Of a stretch of 22,737 nt of DNA, positions 3,164-20,675 are shown piece by piece. The notes below the pieces were generated by a model. The model ran no database searches and had not been told where the DNA came from. It saw only the letters and a program-made list of their open reading frames with translations. Each line of letters opens with the position of its first letter. Within the stretch, counting starts at the first letter, position 1. The DNA comes from a virus. The stretch spans positions 1-22,737 of the IMG/VR virus record IMGVR_UViG_3300034073_001415; one strand, given 5' to 3'. Made by a program: the position numbers and the translations under genes.

Positions 3164-3393
3164 GACTCGACTTCCTCGATGCCAAGCGTGGTGACAAACT
3201 CGTCAAGCATTTCGTGGACGTGGGCAAACGCCGCTTTGATCGTGTAGACGCAGCCGCCCATGCCAATGCGTGACTTCGCAACGCAGATGGCTTGCCGCAG
3301 CCTTGCCAGCCGGTACTGGGCTTCGCTGACTTGCCTGTCGTTGATCTCAAAGTAGGCGTCGTGCGCCGCCTGGTGTTCGCCAAAGTCAACCAT
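3160..3393 (-). CDS. Hypothetical 77-aa protein
   Basis: Unrecognised, mostly helical, with a central Gly/Cys stretch (GMGGCVYTIK). The ATG at 3393 forms TGATG with the stop of the RuvC-like gene, and the gene ends in ATGA with the methyltransferase start. Size and position fit an accessory early protein; no function inferred. Confidence 0.7.
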   Translation of the reverse strand: MVDFGEHQAAHDAYFEINDRQVSEAQYRLARLRQAICVAKSRIGMGGCVYTIKAAFAHVHEMLDEFVTTLGIEEVES

Positions 3394-3875
3394 CACGCTT
3401 GCCCTCCATGTCTCGCATACCAGTGGCAAAGCAACGCAGCGTCAGCCCTGCCGTCGTCCTTGGCTCGCTTGAACAACTCGGCACTGTCCGGCCACAGCCG
3501 CATCGCAGCGGCTCGGTGTGCATTCTTGTCGCTGCCCACGCCCAGTGCCTTCGTCCAGGCTTGCGGACGCACCAGGACTCGCATCACTCGCAGCGCCCCC
3601 AACGTGCCCTCGATAATGCCGAAGCCACGCCCGAAATTGAAGGCACTGGTGGCACCGGACTGCTGCACGCCCTGGACGTGTTCCAAGACAGCAATGCAGT
3701 CGTGGCGGTAGATTCCCAGGATCGTGCCAACTCCGGTCGGGCAAACTCGCCGCTTGCCGTTTTCAGTGATAAACGGCATGTCGTGGATGTCGATGATCCG
3801 GGTTGCGTCGTCTTTCATGACGGCAATCGCGCCGCTCACGCCTGGGTCGATGCCGATGAGGAATGTGCCAGCCAT
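3393..3875 (-). CDS. RuvC-like Holliday-junction resolvase
   Basis: A 160-aa RNase H-fold endonuclease expected to cut Holliday junctions or branched replication/packaging intermediates. The acidic active site is visible: D10 in LIGIDPGVSGAIAV, E65 in IAVLEHVQ, and the C-terminal DDGRADAALL with D141 and D145. That is the spacing expected of RuvC and phage/poxvirus-type resolvases. Length is close to the family norm. The ATG at 3875 starts directly at the fold; the track-style upstream TTG adds three unsupported residues. It belongs with the Sak4-like ATPase, SSB-like protein and initiator of this operon as the recombination module. Confidence 0.9.
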   Translation of the reverse strand: MAGTFLIGIDPGVSGAIAVMKDDATRIIDIHDMPFITENGKRRVCPTGVGTILGIYRHDCIAVLEHVQGVQQSGATSAFNFGRGFGIIEGTLGALRVMRVLVRPQAWTKALGVGSDKNAHRAAAMRLWPDSAELFKRAKDDGRADAALLCHWYARHGGQA

Positions 3876-3906
3876 CCGTGACAAGGTGACTAGGTCGCCA
3901 AACCCG

Positions 3907-4146: not shown

Positions 4147-4652
4147 GACTCAATAGCCCATTTGAGTTGCCGCATTTCGCTGACGCTTCGCAGTAAGTGC
4201 TTATGGGCTTTGTGAGCTTTCGGCAGCTTTGCAGCGAACTGGCGATGCATGGCTTGCATGACCTCAACCACCTCATCCGCCTGCATTGACAACTCCGCTC
4301 GCTTCAATGCACCAAACAGGTCGCCTTGGGATATTGCTCCAACAGGCTTGTTGAGCAAATCGCAGCCCATGTCGGAACGCTGCCGGCACCAAAAACGCTC
4401 ACGCTCATTGATGTCGATTGGCGAAATGCCTTCCTCAATGACTCGAAGCTCTGGCAACATTCCGATGCACCTCAATTCGTCCTGCCACTGGTACAGGGCG
4501 TTGTTTTGCTGGTACACAGGCTTTTTTGCTTGGTGTGACTGCCTCCTCCTTTCAAGCACAAACGACTGGCCGACATACCTGCACTGACCATCTCGTGGGT
4601 CTATTAACTCGTAGACAACGCCACGGCCACTGTGGCTTGCGGATTCTTTCAT
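4143..4652 (-). CDS. GIY-YIG nuclease domain protein
   Basis: 169 aa. Residues 12-105 form a GIY-YIG nuclease: VVY (12-14, the GIY position), RYVGQS (25-30, the YIG position), Arg 35-37, Glu 83/85 in INERERFW and Asn101 in LLNKPVG. All five conserved positions are present, so it is probably active. Family members include free-standing homing endonucleases, repair nucleases and restriction enzymes. The C-terminal 60 residues are basic and helical and may bind DNA. Base composition is visibly more AT-rich than both neighbours, which suggests separate acquisition. Yet ATGA overlaps bind it into the operon on both sides. Confidence 0.82.
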   Translation of the reverse strand: MKESASHSGRGVVYELIDPRDGQCRYVGQSFVLERRRQSHQAKKPVYQQNNALYQWQDELRCIGMLPELRVIEEGISPIDINERERFWCRQRSDMGCDLLNKPVGAISQGDLFGALKRAELSMQADEVVEVMQAMHRQFAAKLPKAHKAHKHLLRSVSEMRQLKWAIES

Positions 4653-5473
4653 GACTGCACCACCACGCCACGCCGCCTAGCCTCACGCTCCTCGGTCGCC
4701 TTGCGAACCTTCTCCCACTCCGGATCCACCTTGATCGGTGGCCGCTCGTCGCCGTTCCTGGCCTTCGGCGTCACGCTGTCGTAGCGTCCACCAAGCACGT
4801 CACGGGCGAACGCCGCCTTGGAAACGAACTGCGGCAGCGTCACGGGCGTGCGGAAGTACACACACTTCGGCAAGTGCTTGATTGCCGCCAGTGCATCTTC
4901 CAGCCAGCCAGGCTCGGCCAGCCGCTGCTCGGTGCCGTCTGGTGGTGCCGCCGGTCGCCACGCCTTGCCAGTGCCGGCGTTCCAGGCGGATCGCAATGCC
5001 TGCCAGGAACTCCCGTCCTGCGAAGCCTCGCGCGGAGGAGGAGGAACTTCTCCTTTCATTTCCTCTCCTTTCCTTTCCTCTGGTAACGCCGATGCGTTAC
5101 GGTCAGCGTTACGGGTGGCGTTACTCTGCCTATTTCGCCACGTTTCCTGACGCCTTGCGGCCAATGCCCTCGACTTCGCAGCCTGCGAAAACCGATCCTC
5201 CCACCCTGGGATGGTCAGCGTCTTGTCGCCGACCACGAGCCAACCCGCCTGCTCGACAGCCTTCCAGAACGTCTCGTCGCCGCCGGCCACGCCGGACAGC
5301 ATGGCGAGCGATCCCTTGACGGTGCCGTCAGCAGTGATGAGCCACGCCCATGACCACAGGCGTACCAGCCGTCCGATGACAACCTCAACGGGCTGCCCAG
5401 TCGCAGCCGCCACCTCTAGCACCTCCGGCTTAATGCCTAGGTTGCAATCAACAGGAAGCCATTCACCCGCCAT
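4649..5473 (-). CDS. Replication initiator / helicase-loader-like protein
   Basis: 274 aa. The N-terminus (EWLPVDCNLGIKPEVL, then VVIGRLVRLWSWAW and later AGWLVV, LTIPGWEDRFSQAAKSRALA) matches a widespread phage family with a DnaD/replisome-organiser-type winged-helix N-domain that binds the origin and helps load helicase. A low-complexity linker (about 112-165, Arg/Asn then Glu/Lys then Pro) leads to a C-terminal domain with WLEDALAAIKHLPKCVYF. The linker DNA holds repeats and a purine tract that look like an origin (see 5047-5125). ATG at 5473 has a strong SD, TAGGAGG, inside the preceding gene. I see no primase or helicase motifs, so helicase must come from the host or from outside the window. 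Confidence 0.75.
   Translation of the reverse strand: MAGEWLPVDCNLGIKPEVLEVAAATGQPVEVVIGRLVRLWSWAWLITADGTVKGSLAMLSGVAGGDETFWKAVEQAGWLVVGDKTLTIPGWEDRFSQAAKSRALAARRQETWRNRQSNATRNADRNASALPEERKGEEMKGEVPPPPREASQDGSSWQALRSAWNAGTGKAWRPAAPPDGTEQRLAEPGWLEDALAAIKHLPKCVYFRTPVTLPQFVSKAAFARDVLGGRYDSVTPKARNGDERPPIKVDPEWEKVRKATEEREARRRGVVVQS
5047..5125 (-). other. Candidate replication origin (iterons plus purine tract)
   Basis: Minus-strand reading: GTAACGC occurs three times at an exact 12-base spacing (plus coordinates 5118-5124, 5106-5112, 5094-5100). An inverted copy follows at 5083-5089, making a perfect 7-bp stem with a 4-base loop with the third copy (5083-5100). Directly downstream is a 35-base tract (5047-5081) that is all purine on the minus strand apart from one base. 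This sits in the linker-coding part of the initiator-like gene. In phage lambda the origin likewise lies inside gene O, with iterons followed by a purine-rich easily melted tract. The origin call is inference. Confidence 0.5.
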
Positions 5474-5780: not shown

Positions 5781-7163
5781 CTACGCACTCGCTTTCCCAT
5801 CCATTGGCAAAGCGTCAACCGCTGCAATCCGCTCCCCGATCCAACGCATCACCGGCACTGCCATCGAGTTGCCAAGCGCCCGATAGCGTGGCCCGTCCGC
5901 TGCTGGCTTGCCTCGATACGTGACAAGCGTGTAGCCATCGGGAAAGCCTTGCAGCCGCTCGCATTCCGTTGGCGTAAGGCGCCTTACTGACATTGCGGTC
6001 ATGGCAACGCCTTCGACCGGCGTGCCGTTGCTACGCCACCCGCTCCCAGGGTTTGCCCGAAGGCTGCTTGAGACTTCGCACGAGGCGACCGCCGGCGCAT
6101 GAGCTCCAGCCGCTATCGGGTGGCAGGGATCGCCTGCCTTCGGGCTGCTGTAATTCGACTTGCTAGTGATCTGCGTGGTGTCGAACGGCACGGCCACATA
6201 GTTCTGCTGCTTCATGCCAGCCTCTGCTGCCAAGGCACCGCAGATGTCGCCATCGCCGCCTATCTTGCGGACTTCGTCGCGAGTGTTTTGAGTGAACGCC
6301 ACCGCCTGCGTACTGCACCCACCCTTAGATCCGCAGCCCATAGCGTGCGTAGAACCGTCAACGCTGCTGATAGGGTCTTGCGTTGGGTGGAAGGCGACAA
6401 TGCCGCCTTTCTGGCTGCGGTGCGTTACCAGCGTGCCCGCGTGATCGCTGTAACTCTCTGCGTTCGCACATTCGCCAGCACGCCACATTGGCGAAAGCAC
6501 TACGTCGTCTTGCCCTCGTGACTCTCCGGGCCGCTCGATACCCCTGCCGCTGCTTGTAAGGCTTGCCGCAGTTGATCTGGCAATTCCTTCCCACGCTTTT
6601 CTGCGCGTCGGAGGATTCCCGAACACGCTTTCGCGCTCAAATAGTACCGCTGCGGCACGTCGCCAGTCTCCAAGGTATCCGACAACGAACACACGACGAC
6701 GACGCTGGGCGACTCCAAACCATTGAGCGTCAAGAACTCTGTAGGCGAACCCATACCCGAGCTCTGCCAACGCCCCGAGGAAGGTGCCAAAATCCCGTCC
6801 TCCACCGCTACTGAGGACACCCGGCACGTTTTCCCAAACGATCCACCTGGGCTGCATGACAGCAGCAAGCTGGACGAATCGGAGGGCCAAGTTACCACGC
6901 GGGTCTGCCAATCCTCCGCGAAGCCCTGCAACGGAAAATGACTGACAGGGAGTTCCACCCACGAGAAGGTCAACTGCGCCGTACTCATCAAGCATCTCCT
7001 CCGTGATTGCCGTCATATCGCCAAGGTTTGGCAGTCCGTGCCGCTGCTCCACCACTGCCGCCGGAAATGGCTCAATTTCGCTCGTCCAGACACACTTCCA
7101 GCCGAGCGATCGCCACGCCACATGCACCGCACCGATACCGTCGCAGACGCTTGCGTACCTCAT
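5781..7163 (-). CDS. DNA (cytosine-5) methyltransferase
   Basis: A 460-aa C5-cytosine DNA methyltransferase. Motifs in order: I CDGIGA (7-12, SAM), IV GGTPCQSFS (69-77, catalytic C73), VI WENVPG (110-115), VIII QRRRRVF (153-159). A long target-recognition region of about 230 residues is followed by IX RRLTPTECERLQGFPDGY and X RALGNSMAVPV near the end. The set is complete, so it should be active. No partner restriction enzyme is visible, so it is probably an orphan phage methyltransferase that protects against host restriction or marks the phage genome. The ATG at 7163 (AGGAGG 8 bases ahead, ATGA overlap) starts at the usual family N-terminus. The recognition site cannot be read. Confidence 0.93.
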   Translation of the reverse strand: MRYASVCDGIGAVHVAWRSLGWKCVWTSEIEPFPAAVVEQRHGLPNLGDMTAITEEMLDEYGAVDLLVGGTPCQSFSVAGLRGGLADPRGNLALRFVQLAAVMQPRWIVWENVPGVLSSGGGRDFGTFLGALAELGYGFAYRVLDAQWFGVAQRRRRVFVVGYLGDWRRAAAVLFERESVFGNPPTRRKAWEGIARSTAASLTSSGRGIERPGESRGQDDVVLSPMWRAGECANAESYSDHAGTLVTHRSQKGGIVAFHPTQDPISSVDGSTHAMGCGSKGGCSTQAVAFTQNTRDEVRKIGGDGDICGALAAEAGMKQQNYVAVPFDTTQITSKSNYSSPKAGDPCHPIAAGAHAPAVASCEVSSSLRANPGSGWRSNGTPVEGVAMTAMSVRRLTPTECERLQGFPDGYTLVTYRGKPAADGPRYRALGNSMAVPVMRWIGERIAAVDALPMDGKASA

Positions 7164-7723
7164 CGCGGAAGCCTCCTGCTGCTTGACTTCCTGCACGACA
7201 GCATTGCGTTGAACGTGAACCGCTCGTCAGCCCAATCGCCCCACCCGCTGCGAAACAGCTTGTTGGCAGCCCGCGTGATGATGTGAGTCATGGCAACGTC
7301 GTCGCCATGCTTGCCAGCCATCATCAATGGAACGGCGCCCATTGCCCTCATCTGCTCAACCGACACGCTGAACCTTTCCCGTACATCAGACAGGTACGGC
7401 GACCGCTTACCCTTGTGAGAACCCCAGTTCTTCTTGAGCTTATGTGTGCGGCACAGCAGCCCCCACACATGCCACGACTCCAAGGCTGTGTCGGCAAGCC
7501 TGTTGACTCGTGATGTAATACGCCGCAGCTCCTCTGAGTACGGGTAGTGGTCACGCGGCAACTCGCAGCTTACAAACGCCGACCAGATCGCCCTGGCAAC
7601 GTAACCGGCCACGTCTTCGTTTGTAACGCCAAGCACGGTGGCCGGCGGCTTGAGCAAGGCGTCTGCCTTCGCGTCAAGCCGCCGCACCATGTTCCATGCC
7701 TCGGCGTCAGTAATGACGCTCAT
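7160..7723 (-). CDS. Hypothetical 187-aa protein between ParB-like and MTase genes
   Basis: Unrecognised and predicted helical. Visible stretches: VARAIWSAFVSCELP, then ESWHVWGLLCRTHKLKKNWG, a basic loop (KGKRSP) and AANKLFRSGWGDWADERF near the end. ATGA overlaps tie it on one side to the ParB-like gene and on the other to the C5-methyltransferase, so the three are likely made together. A DNA-binding or accessory role is possible from the basic patches; I cannot assign one. Confidence 0.75.
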   Translation of the reverse strand: MSVITDAEAWNMVRRLDAKADALLKPPATVLGVTNEDVAGYVARAIWSAFVSCELPRDHYPYSEELRRITSRVNRLADTALESWHVWGLLCRTHKLKKNWGSHKGKRSPYLSDVRERFSVSVEQMRAMGAVPLMMAGKHGDDVAMTHIITRAANKLFRSGWGDWADERFTFNAMLSCRKSSSRRLPR

Positions 7724-8523
7724 GCTACGGCGACCTCCTGCTCAACCGTCGCATCCCATGCCGGCAGCTTCCGCCTCACGCCGATGTTGTAGTAAGCCAG
7801 GAACGCATGGCCGACAGCCTTGTCGCGTGACCCGCCGTGCATGAGCTTGAACGGCTTCGCCTGCCCGAGAACGTGCGATGGCGACTCGGTTGCCATCTTG
7901 TTGACAAGCCGCTTGAGATCGACGTCGCCCTGGTAGCGGTGCAGGAACTGAGACAATCCGCCGACCATCGCCTGGTGGTAAGCGTTGTCGTGGCCGCCAC
8001 CCCACGCCTTCTTGAGCGTCTCAAGCACCAACCGCAGATGTTCCGCGCCACCACGACGGTAGGAGTCTCGGCACGAGTTCACGCAACTGATTGAGCCGCC
8101 CTTGCGGCTCTGAGCCATGCCGGTGACGTTCAAGCCGACGCTGTTGATGACCTCAAGGACGGCAACCGCCTCCTCGTCGCCCTCGGCAACGAGTCCCTTG
8201 AAAAGCTGATGTGCCGACAGCTTGCGGCTCTTGTTCCGCTTGCGGAACAAAGCGGCCTCATAGGCCGGCCCCGCCGACTGCACGACCTGGCACGGCACCC
8301 GCTTGATGCCAAGCTGCCGACAGCTCGAGACTCGCTGGAACCCGTCAACAAGCCACAGGCTGCCGTCCTGACGTTCTGCAACAAGCGGCACGCCAAAGGC
8401 GTCCGTATCGAAGTTCTTCTTGATGTCATTGACGTGCTGCGGGATCATCTCCCGCTGGTACTCCGGGGCCACGTTGAGGTCGTCAACGTCGATCATCCTC
8501 GTCTCTGGCTTATGAAGGTGCAT
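7720..8523 (-). CDS. ParB/sulfiredoxin-like N-domain protein
   Basis: 267 aa. The first 80 residues form a ParB-N/Srx-like domain: IDVDDLNVAPEYQRE (11-25), then LWLVDGFQRVSSCRQLGIKRVPCQVV (57-82). The DGFQR segment corresponds to the DGxHR phosphate/nucleotide-binding motif of the family. The rest is helical and unrecognised, with no clear ParB-type helix-turn-helix, so true plasmid partitioning is unlikely. Such phage proteins are often nucleases, NTPases or regulators. No ParA is visible. The ATG at 8523 has a very good SD, AAAGGAGGG, 5 bases ahead; an upstream in-frame start at 8556 is not needed. Confidence 0.82.
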   Translation of the reverse strand: MHLHKPETRMIDVDDLNVAPEYQREMIPQHVNDIKKNFDTDAFGVPLVAERQDGSLWLVDGFQRVSSCRQLGIKRVPCQVVQSAGPAYEAALFRKRNKSRKLSAHQLFKGLVAEGDEEAVAVLEVINSVGLNVTGMAQSRKGGSISCVNSCRDSYRRGGAEHLRLVLETLKKAWGGGHDNAYHQAMVGGLSQFLHRYQGDVDLKRLVNKMATESPSHVLGQAKPFKLMHGGSRDKAVGHAFLAYYNIGVRRKLPAWDATVEQEVAVA

Positions 8524-8560
8524 CGCACCCTCCTTTCGTTGTAAATCACTCTCCATCGCA

Positions 8561-8983: not shown

Positions 8984-9011
8984 TGAACCACGGATGGAGG
9001 AACGTGGTTCA
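8984..9011 (-). terminator. Hairpin at 3' end of SSB-like gene
   Basis: Perfect 9-bp inverted repeat TGAACCACG / CGTGGTTCA around a 10-base loop, with the stop codon of the SSB-like gene (9009-9011) in one arm. It lies in the 104-base gap before the winged-helix gene. No T-run follows on the minus strand, so a processing or stability role fits better than a classical terminator. Confidence 0.45.
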
Positions 9012-9530
9012 GAACGGTATGGAATCCTCCGATCCTGACTGCCCAGCGGCAGCAACCTTCGCAGCCGGCGTGCGAGCGGCAGCCTTCTTGGCCGGCTTCG
9101 CAGCAGGCTTCTGCTCCGGTTGCTCCCATGCCGGCTTATCAACGGCATGGAACTCCCCGACGTTGGCGAACAAGCCGCCCTTGTCGCCCGTCGAGTGCCA
9201 GATGCGAGCCACAACCGTCTTGCCGACGATGGAGCCATCCACCACGGCATCACGGAGTTGGTTGCCGCTCCAGCCCAACGACTTCGCCAGCGAACCGAGC
9301 AACCGAGGCCACGACTTGCTCCCCCGCAACGGGTTGCACTTGACGTAGAAGTAGCCAGGGTCGGCGTGCTTCAACTGGATTTCCAGCCGCTCGCCGCCCT
9401 TGCTGTCGTAGACCATGCCAGCCTTGACGATCTCGAACTCGTGGGTGCCTTCGGGAATGGTGGTCTTCTCAGACCGCTCCTCCGGCACGTACTCGTCCAG
9501 GTCGCCCCAATCACCAAAATCATCGCTCAT
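9009..9530 (-). CDS. SSB-like protein with EDSIPF C-terminal tail
   Basis: 173 aa. An acidic N-terminus (DDFGDWGDLDEY) leads into a beta-rich domain (about 25-130: TIPEGTHEFEIVKAGMV, ERLEIQLKHADPGYFYVKC, GKTVVARIWHSTGDKG) that could be an OB fold or a DUF669-like fold. A Pro/Ala/Lys linker (138-165) ends in SEDSIPF. An acidic stretch closing in I-P-F is the signature with which bacterial SSBs recruit repair and replication partners. The role is probably binding single-stranded DNA during replication/recombination, as partner of the Sak4-like ATPase directly upstream. The ATG at 9530 lies just after that gene's stop. The fold assignment is less sure than the tail. Confidence 0.75.
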   Translation of the reverse strand: MSDDFGDWGDLDEYVPEERSEKTTIPEGTHEFEIVKAGMVYDSKGGERLEIQLKHADPGYFYVKCNPLRGSKSWPRLLGSLAKSLGWSGNQLRDAVVDGSIVGKTVVARIWHSTGDKGGLFANVGEFHAVDKPAWEQPEQKPAAKPAKKAAARTPAAKVAAAGQSGSEDSIPF

Positions 9531-9534
9531 CAAA

Positions 9535-10482
9535 TCACTCCTCTGTTGAGCCGGCAGCAACCGGCAGTTTGGAATCAATCGCACCAAGGAACTCATCAAC
9601 CTCATCGCTCGTCAGTTCGCCAGCCTCGGCAAGCTGCTCGACACGGGCCTTCATCCTGGTCAGCAACCCTTCGGCGGTCGTCTCGGCAATCGCCTTGCGG
9701 ATGACCGATGACACCGGCTCCGCTGCTTCCACCTTGGCGGTAGGCTTGGCAGCGGGAGCCGGTGCCGGTTGTTCAAAGATTGGGGCGAGCGCCTCAATCG
9801 TCATGGGGATGGACGGCGGCAGGCCGTAGCGGTTCTTGGCGTCCCACGCCGCACACCGCTGGCAATAGAGCTTCCGTTCCTGGCCGCCCTTGCCACGCTT
9901 CCGCCCGTCCTCGCCTTCGACAATCCGGGTCTGGTAGTTGGCGAACAGCAACGCATCGGCCCACTCTTTCAGCAGCGGTGCTGATTGCTTGGTGAGCTTC
10001 AGTTCGTAGCGGTCGTAGCCCTCGTCCATGTCCGGCGGCGAGAACCGCTTGACGGTGGCATGGGCCAGCAGCAGCACGTTGACGCCACGTGCAATGATCT
10101 TGTCGCACTTCGCAAGGAACTCAGCGAACCGCTCCGCCGCGATCGTGTAGCCCTTTCCGTATGGAATGTCCTCAATGCTCTTGGGCTGCTTGGGATGCGT
10201 CTTGAGCATGTGCTCAATCAGAATCCGCTCCGCCCAATCAGCCGTGTCGATCACAACCGTCTCGTACCCTTGCGGGTCGCCGGCCAGGTCAACGAGCGCA
10301 CCGTTGAGCGTCACCCAATCACGAGCCTCGACACGATCGACGTCGAACTGCTTCGTGCCTTCCTCGGTGTCAATGAACACCGGCTTCGGGAACTGGCTGC
10401 CCAGCGTGGTTTTGCCGATCGACTCAACGCCGTACAGCACGGTGCGTGCTGCGTGACGTTGCCTTCCCTTCACAATCTTCAT
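9535..10482 (-). CDS. Sak4-like RecA-fold recombination ATPase
   Basis: 315 aa. Walker A GVESIGKT (18-25), FIDTEEGTKQF (36-46), Walker B strand ETVVIDTADW (74-83) and LLLAHATVKRF (137-147) match the phage AAA_24/Sak4 family. These are short RecA/Rad51-core ATPases that promote single-strand annealing, known to work with a cognate phage SSB. A CQRC pair (207-210) may be structural. After a Pro/Ala linker (about 237-255) a helical tail follows (SSVIRKAIAE to VDEFLGAI). ATG at 10482 is preceded by GGAGGGACGGAAG. Gene order with the SSB-like protein supports a recombination/replication role. Ordinary substrate would be processed phage DNA ends. Confidence 0.87.
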   Translation of the reverse strand: MKIVKGRQRHAARTVLYGVESIGKTTLGSQFPKPVFIDTEEGTKQFDVDRVEARDWVTLNGALVDLAGDPQGYETVVIDTADWAERILIEHMLKTHPKQPKSIEDIPYGKGYTIAAERFAEFLAKCDKIIARGVNVLLLAHATVKRFSPPDMDEGYDRYELKLTKQSAPLLKEWADALLFANYQTRIVEGEDGRKRGKGGQERKLYCQRCAAWDAKNRYGLPPSIPMTIEALAPIFEQPAPAPAAKPTAKVEAAEPVSSVIRKAIAETTAEGLLTRMKARVEQLAEAGELTSDEVDEFLGAIDSKLPVAAGSTEE

Positions 10483-10513
10483 CTTCCGTCCCTCCATGCC
10501 ATCCACCCTTGCC

Positions 10514-12939: not shown

Positions 12940-13848
12940 ATGACTCTGGAAGACTTTCTGCGGGCGGTCTACGTTCCGCTGCGGCTGCGTGGCCGCTCGC
13001 CTGAATCGGTTCGGCTGCTTGAGCACGCTGTGCGGCAGTTCAGCCGGTGGCTTGGACGGCCAGCCGTGCTTGATGACTTCGACGACCTGACGGTGTCTCA
13101 ATTTTTAGCCCATCGTGGCACCACGCTGTCGCCGTTGTCCGTGGCACGGGAACGCAGCGGCTTGCTTGCCATCTGGAACCTTGCTCAAGCTCGTGGCCTG
13201 CTGCGGCTGCGGCCTTGCGTGATGCCGGAGCTGATCCCCGAACGGATGCCACGGGCGTTCACCGGCGAGGAGCTGCGACGGCTCTACGCTTCGTGCGGCG
13301 AGGTGCGAGGCTGGGTTGGCCCGGTGCCTGCTGCCGTGTGGTTCCGGGCGTTGTGCGCCACGCTGTTCTGCACCGGCGAACGCATCACGGCGATCCTGCG
13401 GGTGCCGCCGGATTGCTGGCGGCGACCGTGGCTAGACGTGCCAGCGGCGTGCAGGAAGGGTGGCAGGAAGGCGATGCTGTACCAACTGCCGCCGGACGTT
13501 GCCGACCTGGTGGACGCTGCCAGCCGCCACGACGGGCCGTTCCTGCTGTGGTGGCCGGCGAGCGACACGGCGTTGCGGAAGCGGTGGCATCGCATCACGA
13601 GGCGTGCCGGGCTTGGCGACGGGCGAGACGTGCAGTTCCACGCCTTGCGGAAGTCGTATGCCAGCCACCTTGAAGCCGCTGGCGGCGATGCACGGGAAGG
13701 GCTGGGGCATTCGTCGGAGGCTGTGACGCGGAAATATTTGGACCCGCGAATCACGCACGCCAGCCGTCCGGCGGACTGGCAGCGGTTGCCGCAGATATGG
13801 CAACCACCACCGGACGACGATTCCGGGGAAGTGTCCGGTGTGGCTTGA
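12940..13848 (+). CDS. int: Tyrosine-family phage integrase
   Basis: 302 aa. N-terminal SAM-like core-binding domain (about 1-100: LEDFLRAVYVPLRLRGRSPESVRLLEHAV), then the catalytic domain. Catalytic residues are visible: R148 in CTGERITAIL, a beta-hairpin Lys in CRKGGRKAM (173/177), H234 and R237 in FHALRKSYA, H257 in LGHSSEAV and the nucleophile Y266 in TRKYLDP. The set is complete. The enzyme joins phage attP to host attB. The protein lacks an obvious arm-type binding domain, so it is a short simple type. ATG has AGGGAGG 8 bases ahead. It is one of only two plus-strand genes. Confidence 0.95.
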   Translation: MTLEDFLRAVYVPLRLRGRSPESVRLLEHAVRQFSRWLGRPAVLDDFDDLTVSQFLAHRGTTLSPLSVARERSGLLAIWNLAQARGLLRLRPCVMPELIPERMPRAFTGEELRRLYASCGEVRGWVGPVPAAVWFRALCATLFCTGERITAILRVPPDCWRRPWLDVPAACRKGGRKAMLYQLPPDVADLVDAASRHDGPFLLWWPASDTALRKRWHRITRRAGLGDGRDVQFHALRKSYASHLEAAGGDAREGLGHSSEAVTRKYLDPRITHASRPADWQRLPQIWQPPPDDDSGEVSGVA

Positions 13849-20378: not shown

Positions 20379-20675
20379 TCAGTCCTCCTCGTCATCCTGA
20401 CGAACGAAGCCATCCTCGTGCAGCACCGCCGCCACGGTCGTAGCGAACTCGGTGACTGCGTCTTCCGTGAGATCTGGAAACCGTGCGTGCGTCATCTCGT
20501 GGATGATGGTGTCCAACCTGTCCACGCCTGCCGCCTTGTCACGTATTCGCACCCGTCGCTTCGTCCAGTCGCAATCACCCCAGCGGTCCCGGTACAGGTT
20601 CACGACGTACTCGAGCGACCACCACCGGCGGGCGATGTGGATGCGTCTGCGGCGAGCGATGCGTAGCCGTGGCAT
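20379..20675 (-). CDS. Zincin-like metallopeptidase (HEMTH)
   Basis: 98 aa. The core has IIHEMTHARF (57-66), an HExxH zinc site with H59, E60, H63; a third ligand may be E72 or E76. WGDCDWTKRRVRI before it forms the edge strand. Small phage zincins of this kind are seen near structural genes. The start at 20675 (MPRLRIARRRR) is chosen as the first residue before the domain; the SD is poor. Confidence 0.75.
   Translation of the reverse strand: MPRLRIARRRRIHIARRWWSLEYVVNLYRDRWGDCDWTKRRVRIRDKAAGVDRLDTIIHEMTHARFPDLTEDAVTEFATTVAAVLHEDGFVRQDDEED

Follow-up and report, generated by a model that had tools for sequence, protein, structure and literature searches.

A phage replication origin, composed of iterons and an unwinding element, very probably lies within the linker codons of the replication initiator gene described here; this function is inferred, with no experiment behind it. 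The gene was found in what is called the window, meaning the whole 22,737-base IMG/VR record, which is classed as linear, lacks terminal repeats and is probably a fragment, so that other origins cannot be excluded. Comparative evidence strongly supports the original prediction of a lambda-O-style origin within the initiator gene, and the homologues behave as it had anticipated. Origins within genes are known from lambda and a handful of other phages, but most phage genomes have no assigned origin. A signature consisting of an iteron dyad ending in ..ACC and then AGAGR pentads could locate origins by inspection in many tailed-phage genomes. The features of the region are listed below.

4649-5473, minus strand: replication initiator CDS of 274 aa (ORF; PHROG 2509/9474; AlphaFold2 pLDDT 83.8)
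5186-5473, minus strand: N-domain, residues 1-96, winged-helix-like according to the model and structural matches
5099-5185, minus strand: codons of a predicted long helix, residues 97-125, whose residues 101, 105 and 109 covary with iteron type (model and covariation)
4793-5014, minus strand: C-domain, residues 154-227, presumed to load helicase, a role that is inferred (model; no Pfam match)
5118-5124, minus strand: iteron 1, GTAACGC (sequence)
5106-5112, minus strand: iteron 2, GTAACGC (sequence)
5094-5100, minus strand: iteron 3, GTAACGC (sequence)
5083-5089, plus strand: iteron 4, an inverted copy (GCGTTAC when read on the minus strand) that makes up the dyad 5083-5100 with iteron 3 (sequence)
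5047-5081, minus strand: period-5 purine tract of seven ARAGG-like units, the proposed unwinding element (lag-5 identity, low stability)
5034-5046, minus strand: pyrimidine run TTCCTCCTCCTCC directly 3' of the tract, coding for PPPP (sequence; shared by close relatives)

The iterons are present as originally described: three GTAACGC copies occur at exact 12-base spacing (5124-5118, 5112-5106 and 5100-5094, minus strand), and an inverted fourth copy forms a perfect hairpin with the third, with a 7-bp stem and a 4-base loop. All of the elements do fall within the linker of the initiator gene, and the three direct copies are read in frame as NATR, NADR and NAS, as had been claimed; the inverted copy codes for ALP instead, and the protein across the repeat and tract region is SNATRNADRNASALPEERKGEEMKGE. 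With four copies of a short site, a 12-bp spacing and a position inside an initiator gene, the region meets the criterion for an iteron-type origin. The purine tract at 5081-5047 reads AGAGGAAAGGAAAGGAGAGGAAATGAAAGGAGAAG on the minus strand; its length of 35 bases had been given correctly, but it is not a pure purine strand, as it holds 34 purines and one T. The seven ARAGG-like units show a lag-5 identity of 0.77 (p<0.005 against synonymous shuffles), and one base separates the last iteron from the tract (GCGTTAC-C-AGAGG); both the period and this junction had escaped the original prediction.

A chance origin of the repeats and tract is unlikely. Of 300 second-order Markov windows, only 1 had four copies of any one 7-mer inside 42 bp, and none contained a comparable purine segment. 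Protein-preserving shuffles of synonymous codons reached the inverted-repeat count of the window at p = 0.007, and not one of 5000 such shuffles kept the four GTAACGC copies. Elsewhere in the window, GTAACGC or GCGTTAC occurs as four single copies. Nearest-neighbour energies place the tract as the least stable 30-bp window of the gene and within the lowest 0.1% of the contig. The pyrimidine run at 5034-5046 could pair with the tract or could simply code for PPPP; a CCTCC run resembling it is kept in the close relatives L004, L415, L423, L441 and L457.

The product of 4649-5473 matched PHROG 2509 (E=1.4e-23) and PHROG 9474 (E=1.3e-15), both annotated as “replication initiation protein”, in an hmmscan in which these were the only PHROGs matched. 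It also meets the requirement for membership of the PHROG 2509/9474-type initiators, namely a conserved N-domain (MAGDWIK..., residues 1-112). Relatives include the initiators of epsilon15, CP2 and TL-2011b and the 442/2 form of Rac YdaU, at 27–35% identity in the N-domain, and an alignment with 62 homologues left W5, W40, G50, W78, K100 and R102 invariant. The protein had been described as DnaD/replisome-organiser-like, a label that is only weakly supported: it had no Pfam match at E<0.1, including none to DnaD, Phage_rep_org_N or Phg_2220_C, and its matches were to PHROG 2509/9474 instead. Among 63 homologues, DnaT (PF17948) was matched by three, Phg_2220_C by one and DnaD by none. Membership of the lambda O family was likewise not met, with no O-like PHROG matched, only 2509 and 9474, and no Pfam match.

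An AlphaFold2 model built from a 63-sequence alignment (mean pLDDT 83.8) predicts, in order, a winged-helix-like domain (residues 12–87), a helix (97–125), a disordered linker and a C-domain. The codons of the disordered linker (pLDDT about 50) make up most of the iteron array and the purine tract. A search of solved structures by sequence with the family profile gave no match. By structure, the best match of the predicted N-domain was the RepA-iteron DNA complex 5kbj_C (Z 6.2 over 82 residues), with 4pql also among the best at Z about 6, and the Foldseek E for a RepA_N-type fold was above 0.1. The model makes a winged-helix fold class plausible. With the 5kbj_C score tied with those of CRP-type winged helices, however, it does not demonstrate any kinship to RepA_N.

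Searches of viral contigs and genomes provided 163 homologous loci, or 130 non-redundant ORFs, in which the layout is observed to be conserved. The purine tract ends the linker in about 110 of the 130, and most of the tract-bearing homologues possess a dyad and then a last iteron abutting the tract, typically as ACC|AGAGA. The iteron cores differ between phages (GTAACGC, GTCACGC, GTCCGC, GTAGACG, GTGGCGC, GTTGCGC, GTCCGG and others), and the tract DNA is read in different frames, in 69, 37 and 4 genes, with alternative readings such as ...LPEKRREE or ...VTREEKRREE. The original prediction had proposed this comparison as its own check, and it held: the repeat-plus-purine layout is kept while the linker changes in its residues and even in its reading frame. 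Across 103 linkers there were 4.18 inverted 7-mer pairs per linker vs 0.58 in synonymous shuffles, and 2.65 out-of-frame direct 7-mer pairs vs 0.43. An internal negative control is provided by 17 tract-less Verrucomicrobial homologues with unrelated linkers, which showed no repeat excess (0.41 vs 0.31). In the homologues examined, iteron-tract elements number one per locus.

Two departures from the common layout were seen. On the Verrucomicrobial chromosomal contigs L091–L147, the N-domain and an AK.RA helix are present without iterons or tract; these homologues are possibly domesticated, or the site that they use lies elsewhere. In L053, from position 6001, a much longer linker repeats SRGQVVDI.CPQ(D/N)A and the tract appears only at codon 247, an arrangement that resembles a duplicated linker segment.

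The iteron sequence also tracks the initiator that presumably reads it. Iteron type was assigned solely from the DNA that follows the N-domain codons. Among pairs less than 40% identical, the columns that best predicted it were 101, 14, 105 and 109, where a shared residue gave same-iteron rates of 0.76, 0.72, 0.64 and 0.46, respectively, vs 0.19 overall. Shuffling the labels 60 times gave a difference of at most 0.26, vs 0.67 observed, and columns 105, 101 and 109 ranked highest in a smaller set with stricter de-duplication. Residues 101, 105 and 109 share one face of the predicted helix 97–125, and the N-domain probably reads the iterons because the iteron sequence follows these residues of a single predicted helix. 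Phylogeny was only partly controlled, however, and some clades (GTCCGC) weigh heavily; binding is inferred, and the covariation supports it only indirectly. Three helix positions that covary with the iteron core would constitute a testable DNA-recognition code.

The pentad repeat (AGAGR)n, with its period of 5, is the new element here. Neither the pentad nor EEKRREEK was found described for phages in the open-access literature searched, and a prior description elsewhere is not excluded. Across homologues, tract identity is 0.75 at lag 5 and about 0.3 at lags 4 and 6, and the periodicity exceeds that of synonymous shuffles at p<=0.05 in 91 of 103 genes. Within protein-defined Glu/Lys/Arg stretches, Arg is encoded by AGA or AGG in 179 of 210 codons, vs 261 of 1580 in the rest of these genes; the Arg codons switch to AGR within the tract, and the constraint therefore acts on the DNA. 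In 81 of 97 homologues, nearest-neighbour energies put the tract within the least stable 2% of the gene's 30-bp stretches. Given so strict a 5-nt period, the question is which protein reads the tract.

Rac prophages provide an example in which these parts have apparently been exchanged. The flanks of ydaU in the 442/2 Rac and in K-12 are 87% and 92% identical, while the N-domain, linker repeats and tract are unrelated; homology returns from nt 427 of ydaU onward, a point within the tract or immediately 3' of it. To judge from this comparison of sequences, the N-domain, iterons and tract move as one cassette. The RepA_N N-domain and origin of PLE have similarly been reported to covary and to swap as modules (PMC8263062). 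A comparison of L284 1228-2016 (442/2) with L503 6120-6977 (K-12) illustrates how the shared name ydaU hides an initiator swap, with an unrelated N-terminal half and the same C-terminal half. K-12 oriJ was considered as direct evidence and rejected, as only the 442/2 record bears the same element. The oriJ work (PMC3945230) supports the locus and not the element, because K-12 YdaU has a different N-domain and different repeats (GTTCAAAC) and no pentads.

The tract also occurs beyond this family. A scan of viral contigs for an exact 22-base AGAGA pattern found at least 71 non-redundant ORFs, and 65 of 71 among the matches listed fit the family profile or related initiators. Ten of the related initiators were checked, of which nine matched PHROG replication or primosomal families and the tenth Phage_rep_org_N (Pfam). 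For a period-3 purine control of equal length (a GAA 22-mer), only 2 of 79 matched initiator profiles. The corresponding AGAGG 22-mer was found at 66 non-redundant places, 25 of which fit family or initiator profiles directly. When 57 of the AGAGG ORFs were scanned against PHROGs, the families returned were mainly “replication initiation” or “primosomal”, unlike the control; a minority of the AGAGG matches seem unrelated (e.g., L440, L450 and L472). In three contigs (L475, L444 and L433), the array sits between genes after short repeats. That of L475 has TAACGC repeats and then eleven units of AGAGG, AGATA, AGAAG, AGATG or AGAGT. Since these three arrays are intergenic, no protein sequence explains them. 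L475 6041-5940 and L433 4117-4022 hold iterons and pentads in a gap beside a terminase gene, as candidate intergenic origins.

It is conceivable that (AGAGR)n is a general, unnamed unwinding element of phage origins, one that serves many unrelated N-domain families and some intergenic origins. Its opened purine strand would be read by a protein that advances 5 nt at a time, in a role like that of the DnaA-trio but with a different period; we offer this only tentatively, as a possibility and not yet as the probable reading. The idea that pentads are universal in phage initiators was rejected: they are absent from 80alpha and P22 (both with an annotated origin in the initiator gene), TP901-1 rep and K-12 Rac YdaU. 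The tract is thus dispensable for at least some in-gene origins.

Among known systems, lambda offers the closest layout. Its iterons and AT-rich region lie inside gene O, and two iterons plus the AT-rich region constitute the minimal unwinding unit (PMC7466680), with nearly all purines of that region on one strand (PMC5043065). Like ori-lambda, the window has mid-gene iterons and then a strand-asymmetric stretch of low stability that is rich in purines on the coding strand (PMC7466680, PMC5043065). It thereby fulfils the criterion for a lambda-type layout, which asks for an initiator gene with iterons and, after them, an unstable strand-asymmetric region. The two differ in that lambda O is unrelated by sequence to the window initiator, the four lambda iterons are 18 bp long and each an inverted repeat whereas the window has 7-bp cores and a dyad, and the lambda tract is A-rich (AAAAGAAAAAAGAAAAGA) whereas that of the window is made of AGAGR pentads. 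The analogy with lambda holds for layout, not for kinship. Closer relatives (epsilon15, CP2, TL-2011b and 442/2 YdaU) share the homologous N-domain and have linker iterons and a purine tract, an element not annotated as an origin in any of them. The iterons of 442/2 YdaU and TL-2011b are GTAACGC, as in the window, while the epsilon15-type set mostly differs in its iteron core (GTCCGC in epsilon15) and has AGAGA or GAGGA-type pentads.

RepA_N plasmids (pSK41/pTZ2162 type) and PLE RepA have an iteron-binding winged-helix N-domain (5kbj, 4pql), which the predicted N-domain of the window initiator may resemble. No sequence similarity was found between the window initiator and RepA_N, and the structural score is common to many winged helices. 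The RepA_N plasmids carry their origin inside the rep gene, and we know of no purine pentads in RepA_N systems. The DnaA-trio is similar to the window tract as a short-period repeat in an unwinding region beside double-stranded binding sites. Its period is 3, with one DnaA subunit per 3 nt, whereas that of the window tract is 5. A DnaT-like filament was rejected as the reader of the 5-nt period, since each subunit of E. coli DnaT holds 2 nt (PMC4132743, PMC13377028).

In the proposed mechanism, the N-domain, chiefly through the basic helix around residues 98–112, would bind the GTAACGC iterons, and oligomers formed on the iterons and dyad would destabilise the adjacent purine tract, where the strands would part. 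The C-domain would then bring in the host helicase. Iteron binding, strand opening and helicase loading are all inferred, as is the order of events (iterons bound, tract opened, helicase loaded), for which lambda gives the precedent. The 5-nt period suggests a specific reading of the opened purine strand, and in the most speculative step a protein may hold that strand at 5 nt per subunit. No experiment on the window phage or the initiator family was found. The GC-skew check suggested at the outset had a divided outcome: the minimum of the fragment is at 20625, and that of relatives is near the tract in TL-2011b and epsilon15 but not in CP2 and Olaya. Altogether, GC skew gave no consistent support for the origin in the fragment and four complete relatives.

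Several other explanations could be conceived. The repeats and tract might be mere by-products of a low-complexity linker with alternating charge and Asn-Ala repeats, their DNA having no role of its own, and the predicted disorder of the linker (pLDDT about 50) and the in-frame reading of the three direct copies (NATR, NADR, NAS) would be compatible with this. Yet the inverted copy codes for ALP and not NA, the repeats and period are lost in synonymous shuffles, one and the same DNA is translated in more than one frame, Arg codons turn to AGR only in the tract, and intergenic copies exist; the explanation is already contradicted by these observations and is scarcely tenable. Coding pentanucleotide repeats can also shift frame, and Neisseria opa uses CTCTT, the complement of an AGAGR-type pentad unit, so the tract might be a slippage-prone microsatellite and phase-variation switch of the initiator gene. 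A comparison of tract lengths gave phase variation by slippage no support, and we attach almost no credence to it: among 282 pairs whose upstream DNA is similar, 217 have tracts of equal length, the length differs in only two cases where the downstream sequence matches, each time by 3 nt, and the downstream frame is open in nearly all complete homologues. Iteron-binding initiators often autoregulate, and a transcript rich in purines would make an RNA-DNA hybrid more likely, so the iterons could instead be an autorepression operator and the tract could act in the transcript (through pausing, an R-loop or RNA stability), with the origin elsewhere. This is improbable, given sites about 350 bp inside the gene and at no promoter, a tract that is the least stable DNA of the gene, and the three intergenic iteron arrays that carry the same tract, two of which adjoin terminase genes.

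The fragmentary state of the window, linear and without terminal repeats, together with its flat skew, would allow the element to be a relic or secondary origin, the main origin lying outside the 22.7 kb; we consider this very improbable, as the initiator ORF, iterons and tract are intact with DNA-level constraint, and homologues examined have one element per locus. The remaining alternative accepts the origin and disputes only how the tract works, that is, by its structure, as a mirror-symmetric (AGAGA)n triplex or a transcript-driven R-loop, and not by 5-nt protein steps. Triplex formation has been reported for AAGAG tandem repeats in Drosophila (PMC6316130), the AGAGA unit is mirror-symmetric, an 18-base mirror repeat, AGAGGAAAGGAAAGGAGA, lies inside the window tract, and the transcript would be purine-rich because in the examined genes the coding strand carries the purines. 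The tracts are short, however, at about 20–35 nt, and variant units (AGATA, AGATG and AGAGT in L475) break mirror symmetry while keeping the 5-nt phase. A structural role is on balance unlikely but deserves to be taken seriously.

The initiator of the window has the following neighbours, which form a replication and recombination block (Sak4-like AAA, RuvC-like and C5 cytosine methyltransferase).

3393-3884: RuvC-like resolvase gene
5781-7196: C5 cytosine methyltransferase gene, two genes upstream of the initiator
9009-9605: small protein of unclear family
9535-10506: Sak4-like AAA protein gene

In epsilon15, a C5 methyltransferase gene is directly upstream of the initiator. The early region of the window also encodes a ParB-like/DUF6551 protein (7720-8556), and the same contig has an integrase (12940-13848).
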